Position numbers and translations under genes: made by a program. 50,194 nucleotides of DNA from Candidatus Geocrenenecus dongiae (GTDB lineage Archaea; Thermoproteota; Nitrososphaeria_A; Caldarchaeales; Wolframiiraptoraceae). This document shows, piece after piece, positions 24,885-26,091 of this stretch (the stretch's first letter is position 1; every line of letters starts with the position of its first letter). The stretch lies in assembly GCA_023267855.1 (NCBI GenBank), contig JALNLN010000012.1, positions 1 to 50,194 of the forward strand, in the 5' to 3' direction. Under the pieces are notes generated by a model, which did no database searches, was not told where the DNA came from, and saw only the letters and a list, made by a program, of their open reading frames with translations.

Positions 24885-25256
24885 TTAAGCTTTCTCGATA
24901 ACTGTAAAAGGTTTAGATAATTCTACTTCTTCTTGCTTGTGGATTCTTGTGAGTATCTTTGGTACCGTGATTACTAGACCCCATGTTGTGAAAACAGCTA
25001 TAGACATAAGTCCACCTGTAAATATCATTTCATTAAGCATTACCGGTATCTGAGATGGAGAAGTCATAGCTGTTAAGAAAGGTGGCCATGGAACAACCTC
25101 TCCATGCCATACATGTTCAATAGCAAGCAGTATTACTCCACCCCATAGAAGAGAATTCAGAATACCTAACTTTAATTTCTCAGCTATCTTTTTTGAAGTT
25201 CTCCAGATAGCTGTAGTTATTACAGCTATGATGAAAGGTGTTATAAAACACGCCAT
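24885..25256 (-). CDS. Small three-helix membrane protein, paralog of its divergent neighbour
   Basis: A 123-residue protein with about three predicted membrane helices (residues 4-18, 33-50 and 77-98). I do not recognise a named family. Helix 2 contains 'SLLWGGVILLAIEHVWHGE', with an acid-histidine pair that recurs in the divergent neighbour ('SLLFWGASIMIFIDHLIGY'). The two share a TA-hydrophobic-W motif in helix 1 as well. A GGGGTGA Shine-Dalgarno precedes the ATG. It sits between the hydrogenase protease and nikR, so a part in nickel supply or in the membrane end of the hydrogenase is plausible, but unproven. Confidence 0.7.
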   Translation of the reverse strand: MACFITPFIIAVITTAIWRTSKKIAEKLKLGILNSLLWGGVILLAIEHVWHGEVVPWPPFLTAMTSPSQIPVMLNEMIFTGGLMSIAVFTTWGLVITVPKILTRIHKQEEVELSKPFTVIEKA

Positions 25257-25270
25257 TACTTTTCACCCCG

Positions 25271-25299
25271 GTAACACTAAGAATAAATATTGGTGTTAC
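25271..25299. promoter_or_regulatory. Inverted repeat bracketing a bidirectional TATA element; candidate NikR operator
   Basis: GTAACAC at 25271-25277 and its exact inverse GTGTTAC at 25293-25299 are separated by 15 bases, 22 bp centre to centre. Between them AATAAATA/TATTTATT stands about 31 nt from both divergent start codons, so one TATA-like element can serve both genes. A repressor on the repeat would close both promoters. nikR is the next gene. GTGTTAC/GTAACAC half-sites are known to me from NikR sites of Geobacter-type bacteria, though arranged in the opposite orientation. Confidence 0.5.
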
Positions 25300-25317
25300 T
25301 AATAAACTTTTCTAGAA

Positions 25318-25611
25318 ATGTGGCTCATAATAATCCTCTTTGCATCAGTTTTTTCAACAGCGCTTTGGTATTCTAAAGCTGAAGATGATAAATACATGCT
25401 GAAACTTCTAAGTCTACTATTTTGGGGAGCTTCAATAATGATCTTCATAGATCATCTAATTGGATATGCTGTAGAGGGAGAAGAATTTATAGACTTATCG
25501 GCTGAATCAATCATACTTGGAATTGTATTGTTAGTCTCCTTACTGATAATCTGGGAGATAATCTTACTAGTAAAAGATCCTAAGAAAGTAGTTTGGAGGA
25601 AATGTAGCTAA
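25318..25611 (+). CDS. Small three-helix membrane protein, paralog of its divergent neighbour
   Basis: A 97-residue protein with three predicted membrane helices (about 2-17, 30-48 and 64-85). The first two helices align with the divergent 123-residue protein: 'STALW' against 'TTAIW', and a W-G followed by I-D-H against W-G and I-E-H. The family is unknown to me. It is expressed toward nikR, which begins 60 bases after its stop. A shared operator suggests joint control with the neighbour. Confidence 0.7.
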   Translation: MWLIIILFASVFSTALWYSKAEDDKYMLKLLSLLFWGASIMIFIDHLIGYAVEGEEFIDLSAESIILGIVLLVSLLIIWEIILLVKDPKKVVWRKCS

Positions 25612-25671
25612 CACCCCAGGCAACCACTATAAGTGAAGATTTACTAATAGAGATTACAATAGTTACTATGT

Positions 25672-26091
25672 ATGAAGAAGATTAGGAGAACAGTGAAGAC
25701 TGGTGTATCTTTCCCTAGAGAGCTTCTTGAAGATTTTGATAAAATTTTGAGAGAACTAGGTATAGGTTCTAGATCTCAAGGATTGCAGGAAGCTATTAGA
25801 ACATTCATCTCTGTTAATTCTTGGAAACTTGAAGAAGGTGAAGAACTTGTTGGAGTTATTCTCATACATTATTCCCATGAAGTTAAAGGTCTAGAAGAAG
25901 AATTAACAGATATACAACATGGACACCTTCATCTAATTCTATCCACACTCCACATACACTTAACTAGAGAAGATTGTCTCCAGATAATAACTGTACGTGG
26001 ACGCTTACCAGAAATAAGAGAATTAACAGAAGAAATTAGAAGTAAAGTTAAGTTGAAGCAACTACTACCAGTACTTATACCAGTACACTGA
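25672..26091 (+). CDS. nikR: Nickel-responsive regulator NikR
   Basis: A 139-residue ribbon-helix-helix repressor. The N-terminal 'RRTVKTGVSFPRELLEDFD' is the DNA-binding arm and helix. The C-terminal ACT-like domain has the four high-affinity nickel ligands H83, H94, H96 and C102 in 'IQHGHLHLILSTLHIHL' and 'REDC'. It likely represses nickel uptake or nickel-enzyme genes when nickel is plentiful. It lies next to the hydrogenase operon and 370 bases from a candidate operator between the two small membrane genes. Confidence 0.94.
   Translation: MKKIRRTVKTGVSFPRELLEDFDKILRELGIGSRSQGLQEAIRTFISVNSWKLEEGEELVGVILIHYSHEVKGLEEELTDIQHGHLHLILSTLHIHLTREDCLQIITVRGRLPEIRELTEEIRSKVKLKQLLPVLIPVH

Follow-up and report, generated by a model that had tools for sequence, protein, structure and literature searches.

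The window analysed here, a stretch of 50,194 nucleotides from Candidatus Geocrenenecus dongiae (contig JALNLN010000012.1), contains two small divergent genes separated by a gap of 61 nt. Gene A (24885-25256, minus strand) codes for 123 amino acids and gene B (25318-25611, plus strand) for 97, and both products are predicted three-helix membrane proteins. They are paralogous (BLASTP E=1e-6), as a sequence-only reading of this DNA had proposed. Neither A nor B matched a Pfam or NCBIfam family, and comparison with PDB sequences gave no match of note. The AlphaFold models of both proteins had three helices (mean pLDDT 83 each) and a Foldseek search of these models against the PDB returned nothing below E=2.5. 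Likewise, neither sequence nor fold matched the known nickel transporter families NikABCDE, NikMNQO and NiCoT. The conserved features of A include a MACF N-terminus, H48, E53, a PxPPFLT motif and E76, with Cys3, His48, Glu53 and Glu76 being invariant, while B has an invariant Asp45-His46 (D45-H46). Almost all homologues of A, from archaea and bacteria alike, have MACF at the very N-terminus, and removal of the methionine would leave an Ala-Cys N-terminus, a possible metal ligand. The A/B pair was also observed in anaerobic bacteria without NikR (loci L067, L072, and L073), and the A protein of Eubacterium and Lachnospiraceae had 201-208 amino acids, which is long enough for an A-B fusion. No consistent partner gene was found in the bacterial A/B neighbourhoods.

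Located 60 nt downstream of B, nikR (25672-26091, plus strand) codes for 139 amino acids with an RHH domain and a NikR_C domain (PF08753, 5.5e-21, 75 bits) carrying the nickel-ligand pattern H..HIH....C, so the gene named by the earlier reading as neighbour of the pair is indeed there. This protein matched NikR chains of the PDB down to E=1.1e-22, and its histidine and cysteine ligands were retained in alignments with 2bj1, 2wvd, and 1q5v. B and nikR are possibly co-transcribed, and nikR may have its own promoter within 25612-25671. Upstream in the window, we found hypF, hypA, hypB, hypD, hypC, and hypE (named from their sequences) as well as genes for a NiFe hydrogenase of the Vhu/Hdr type and the protease that matures it, which makes this setting a nickel-enzyme island.

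The A-B gap contains a pair of heptamers, GTAACAC at 25271-25277 on the side of A (GTGTTAC when read on the minus strand) and GTGTTAC at 25293-25299 on the side of B, separated by an A/T-rich spacer of 15 nt (25278-25292). The inverted repeat GTAACAC-N15-GTGTTAC is therefore present as claimed, with a distance of 22 bp between the half-site centres, and both heptamers are kept in relatives, the A-proximal one at the same position. The repeat is centred at 25285, 29 nt from the ATG of A (25256) and 33 nt from that of B (25318), so the equal distance of about 31 nt attributed to it holds only approximately. Dinucleotide shuffling of the 61-nt gap produced a perfect 7-bp inverted repeat with a loop of 3-30 nt in 13% of cases, and 52 of the 821 61-mers of the window contained one, for which reason the repeat taken alone is weak evidence. 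A scan of the 1.439-Mb genome for the exact pattern, based on pattern matching only, retrieved GTAACAC-N15-GTGTTAC a single time (0.006 expected), and the exact N15 and N14 GTRWYAC patterns revealed no second perfect site in this genome. The genome-wide scan suggested by the earlier reading thus found the exact element once, and related genera have it at nickel-type operons. The shuffle result would suit a reading in which the repeat arose by chance in an A/T-rich gap and its conservation reflects overlapping divergent core promoters, and the region does contain two such promoters.

The first of these includes AATAAATA (25282-25289), a candidate TATA box located inside the spacer, with its centre approximately 32 nt before the ATG of B. 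An equivalent T/A-rich element was found in all five genomes of the window genus, in which the likely TATA of B lies inside the spacer; the promoter function of AATAAATA and a near-leaderless B transcript are candidate predictions. The second includes GTTTATTA (25300-25307, minus strand, with TTTATTA at 25300-25306), a candidate TATA box of A that abuts the B-proximal half-site and is kept in homologous promoters. Nearly all of these have a TTTATWW-like element 0-4 nt from the outer half-site. A TATA box common to A and B had been proposed; AATAAATA does lie within the repeat, but it is probably not shared, as A has its own conserved TATA and a Shine-Dalgarno sequence. We rejected a shared element for A since its own TATA persists in three genomes with a GC-rich spacer (G012, G005, and G016). 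Because A has this TATA at 25300-25307, AATAAATA probably serves B only. The Shine-Dalgarno-like GGGGTGA of A (25263-25269, minus strand) implies a leader, with a putative start about 21 nt before the ATG, beneath the A-proximal half-site; many relatives have GGAGG or GGTGA in this position. The order along the A strand is TATA (usually 0-4 nt before the first half-site), half-site 1, N14-16, half-site 2, Shine-Dalgarno, and ATG. The usual archaeal distance from TATA to transcription start is approximately 26 nt, which would place the start of A on half-site 2, so that a bound NikR would cover the entry region of the polymerase.

Comparison of the gap in relatives with the same gene order, the check on which the earlier reading had staked its proposal, revealed that the repeat is conserved. 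Paired half-sites preceded A/B in 42 of 44 loci of NikR-bearing archaea, compared with one of nine archaeal loci without NikR, a paired site being defined as two GTRWYAC heptamers or GTGCAC hexamers at 20-22 bp. The shuffle values (p<=0.006 each) and the Fisher test for site against NikR presence in archaeal loci (p=4e-7) overstate independence, as the loci are phylogenetically related. The two exceptions among the 44 were a Thermoplasmata locus (L064) with GTAGCAC-N13-GTGCTAC when inspected by eye, and a weak case in G213. The best negative control is provided by seven genomes of the same order that lack NikR and retain A (G022, G025, G030, G032, G034, G037, and G038), none of which had the site. 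It was also absent from Micrarchaeota L066 and from A-bearing bacteria whose genomes lack NikR. One genome, G244 (L165), had a perfect site at A/B and no detected NikR; this MAG is 95% complete, and NikR is present in G254 and G288 of the same genus.

The GTRWYAC pair, spaced by 21-22 bp and at the same promoter position, was found in three genera of the same family (g1, g2, and g4), in another family of the order, and in several families elsewhere in the phylum, as well as in one Methanomethyliaceae and one Thermoplasmata genome. The gene nikR adjoins A/B in three separate lineages, namely the window genus, in which it lies downstream of B, family f10 (L183-L185), and Thermoplasmata L065. In the latter two, nikR is divergent from A/B and the sole site occupies the gap between them. 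Where nikR is located elsewhere in the genome, the site remains with A/B. Overlapping core promoters would leave much of this unexplained, as the heptamers are kept across several archaeal families and phyla where the spacer and flanks vary, including loci where A and B form one operon, are absent from NikR-less relatives retaining A, and recur before unrelated nickel-type genes. The chance reading is already contradicted by the co-occurrence with NikR and we find it scarcely credible. What takes the putative operator beyond chance is its conservation, not the repeat alone.

The symmetry of the repeat fared differently from its conservation. Most relatives have direct repeats of the type GTGTTAC-N14-GTGTTAC with fixed spacing. 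It is not the inverted symmetry that is conserved, and we rejected it as an essential feature since direct repeats are commoner. At half-site 2, the A-proximal position, 29 sequences divided into GTGTTAC (20), GTATTAC (7), and GTAATAC (2). Half-site 1, read along the A strand, was GTGTTAC in most genomes and GTAACA(A/C) in the window genus. Each of the 29 listed A promoters of the GTRWYAC class had a centre spacing of 21 or 22 bp. On the sequences compared, the inverted repeat of the window is a local flip of the commoner direct repeat. GTGTTAC and GTAACAC have their GT...AC ends in common, and the reading of a near-palindromic half-site by a two-fold symmetric RHH dimer would account for an orientation that drifts at constant spacing.

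The same element was also found at other genes. In the genera g2 and g5, GTGTTAC-N15-GTGTTAC or a close variant stands at the start of an operon coding for ZnuA (PF01297), an ABC ATPase, an ABC-3 permease (PF00950), and FmdE (PF02663), with nikR included in most cases. At five loci (L116, L117, L118, L114, and L115, from G005, G016, G018, G008, and G011), nikR was the last gene of such a ZnuA/ABC-3-type and FmdE operon, and we regard this arrangement as a candidate nickel version of the zinc/manganese importer family. In G023 and G026, the element separates nikR from a divergent operon for a small membrane protein and FmdE, and G017 has it before a Peripla_BP_2 gene as well as a small membrane-protein gene. 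Among the NikR-bearing genomes scanned, 21 of 27 pattern matches were at such nickel-type genes or A/B, compared with none of the five matches in NikR-less genomes. Near-identical GTAATAC-N15-GTATTAC inverted repeats were also observed before vapBC-like pairs (L087, L093, and L097) in G001, G012, and the NikR-less G032. These look-alikes indicate that other regulators can use such sites, and a different dimeric regulator, such as an RHH or AbrB-type protein not linked to the locus, might then bind the A/B element and co-occur with NikR by happenstance. This is improbable, as the A/B element tracks the presence of NikR, occupies the gap that separates nikR from A/B in two lineages unrelated to each other, starts nikR-containing operons, and varies in sequence together with the recognition strand of NikR.

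The last point comes from families f6, f40, and f25 (L221-L227), where GTGCAC pairs spaced by 20-22 bp (N14-16) occupy the A/B promoter position. A scan for GTGCAC-N16-GTGCAC retrieved seven sites from the nine GTGCAC genomes, five of which had at least one, whereas nine genomes of the GTGTTAC type had none. In NikR and RHH proteins generally, the half-site is read by the beta strand. Of the NikRs extracted, only those of eight GTGCAC genomes out of nine had a tyrosine at the third contact position of this strand, serine or threonine being found in most of the others. The eight Tyr-type NikRs formed one clade (support 97/95). The remaining genome, G260, has GTGCAC with a Ser-type NikR. On the tree, the correlation of GTGCAC with Tyr came down to two changes, G260 being a separate exception; the link between residue and operator is thus not strict. 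In G156 (L226, G156:C1:653650), a GTGCAC pair was seen in the gap that separates an FmdE-like gene from an apparent gene for cation efflux (CDF) on the opposite strand, both families being assigned by eye, which makes joint control of uptake-type and efflux genes possible.

The NikR of Geobacter uraniireducens, reportedly studied by Benanti and Chivers in 2010, is said to use inward GTGTTAC-type half-sites with nikMN as targets; it resembles the window in these half-sites and differs in being bacterial, in orientation, and in its targets. The E. coli NikR operator at nikABCDE is GTATGA-N16-TCATAC (PMC7055735). Its 22-bp centre spacing is the same as in the window, as had been pointed out, and the E. 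coli RHH tetramer binds two half-sites; it differs in having another half-site sequence, a fixed inward inverted repeat, and the NikABCDE promoter. A close likeness was found in delta-proteobacteria, whose predicted NikR sites include both GTGTTAC-[N13/14]-GTAACAC and the reversed GTAACAC-[N13]-GTGTTAC (Rodionov et al., 2004, PMC545781). The outward form was predicted for nikMLKQO of Desulfotalea psychrophila and, similarly, GTgACAC-N13-GTGTaAC for nikK of D. vulgaris (PMC545781). The half-sites of the window match this described consensus GTGTTAC/GTAACAC, and the belief that they were known in the other orientation only did not hold, since the half-site and its outward orientation are already on record as predictions (PMC545781). 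The delta-proteobacterial sites share the heptamer, the spacing of about two helical turns, the outward orientation, and, given the probable role of A/B, nickel-uptake targets with the window, but have N13/14 instead of the N15 of the window genus and the N14 of most relatives. The archaeal set differs from them in its mixed inverted and direct orientations, its divergent archaeal promoters, and its uncharacterised targets A and B.

With its conservation, its co-occurrence with NikR, the adjacency of nikR in independent lineages, and its reuse at nickel-type operons, the putative NikR-type operator proposed for both divergent genes gains considerable support. We consider it very probable that 25271-25299 is a NikR operator at which nickel-loaded NikR represses A, B, and probably the B-nikR transcript. 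When nickel is sufficient, a Ni-loaded NikR tetramer would bind with one RHH dimer per heptamer, the two being separated by two helical turns. As the operator would lie between the TATA and the start of A and straddle the TATA of B, bound NikR would block both divergent promoters, and the block would extend to the B-nikR transcript as autoregulation. Under nickel scarcity, A and B would be made, probably as an accessory membrane pair for nickel uptake or handling that serves the adjoining NiFe hydrogenase genes. The comparisons show the element itself, its conservation, its link to NikR presence, and its reuse at other nickel-type operons; from them we infer that NikR binds and represses here, where transcription starts, and that A/B take part in nickel uptake or handling.

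The direction of control could also be another one, with NikR acting as an activator at the same operator or repressing A/B as a nickel-sparing function. NikR of Desulfovibrio desulfuricans was predicted to repress a nickel-independent hydrogenase (PMC545781), and it would fit such a role that A/B have homologues in bacteria without NikR and resemble no known transporter. We find this unlikely, though less so than the involvement of another regulator, as most promoters have the site downstream of the A TATA and over the likely start, which is a repressor position, and the other genes bearing the element are mainly importer-type ABC systems. Metal handling by A/B is favoured by the invariant residues of A, the invariant Asp45-His46 of B, and the regulation in common with importer-type genes, none of which is proof.

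Taken together, we tentatively suggest, at somewhat less than even confidence, that A/B represent an unrecognised paired three-helix family for nickel uptake or delivery under NikR control in several archaeal lineages, with a near-palindromic half-site that is free in orientation and fixed in spacing, and with a GTGTTAC or GTGCAC specificity that changes in step with Ser/Thr or Tyr. As far as the literature was searched, A/B are new as a target family in archaea, and so are their wide conservation, half-sites that are free in orientation, and the GTGCAC variant that goes with Tyr. A 2009 survey listed only three nickel/cobalt transporter families in archaea (PMC2667541), and archaeal NikR operators seem hardly mapped. 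The operator and recognition-residue variants described here provide a natural series for testing how NikR reads DNA. Through their regulator, both the widespread unannotated A/B pair and the ZnuA-type ABC-FmdE operon would be assigned to the nickel homeostasis of thermophilic archaea that have hydrogenases.
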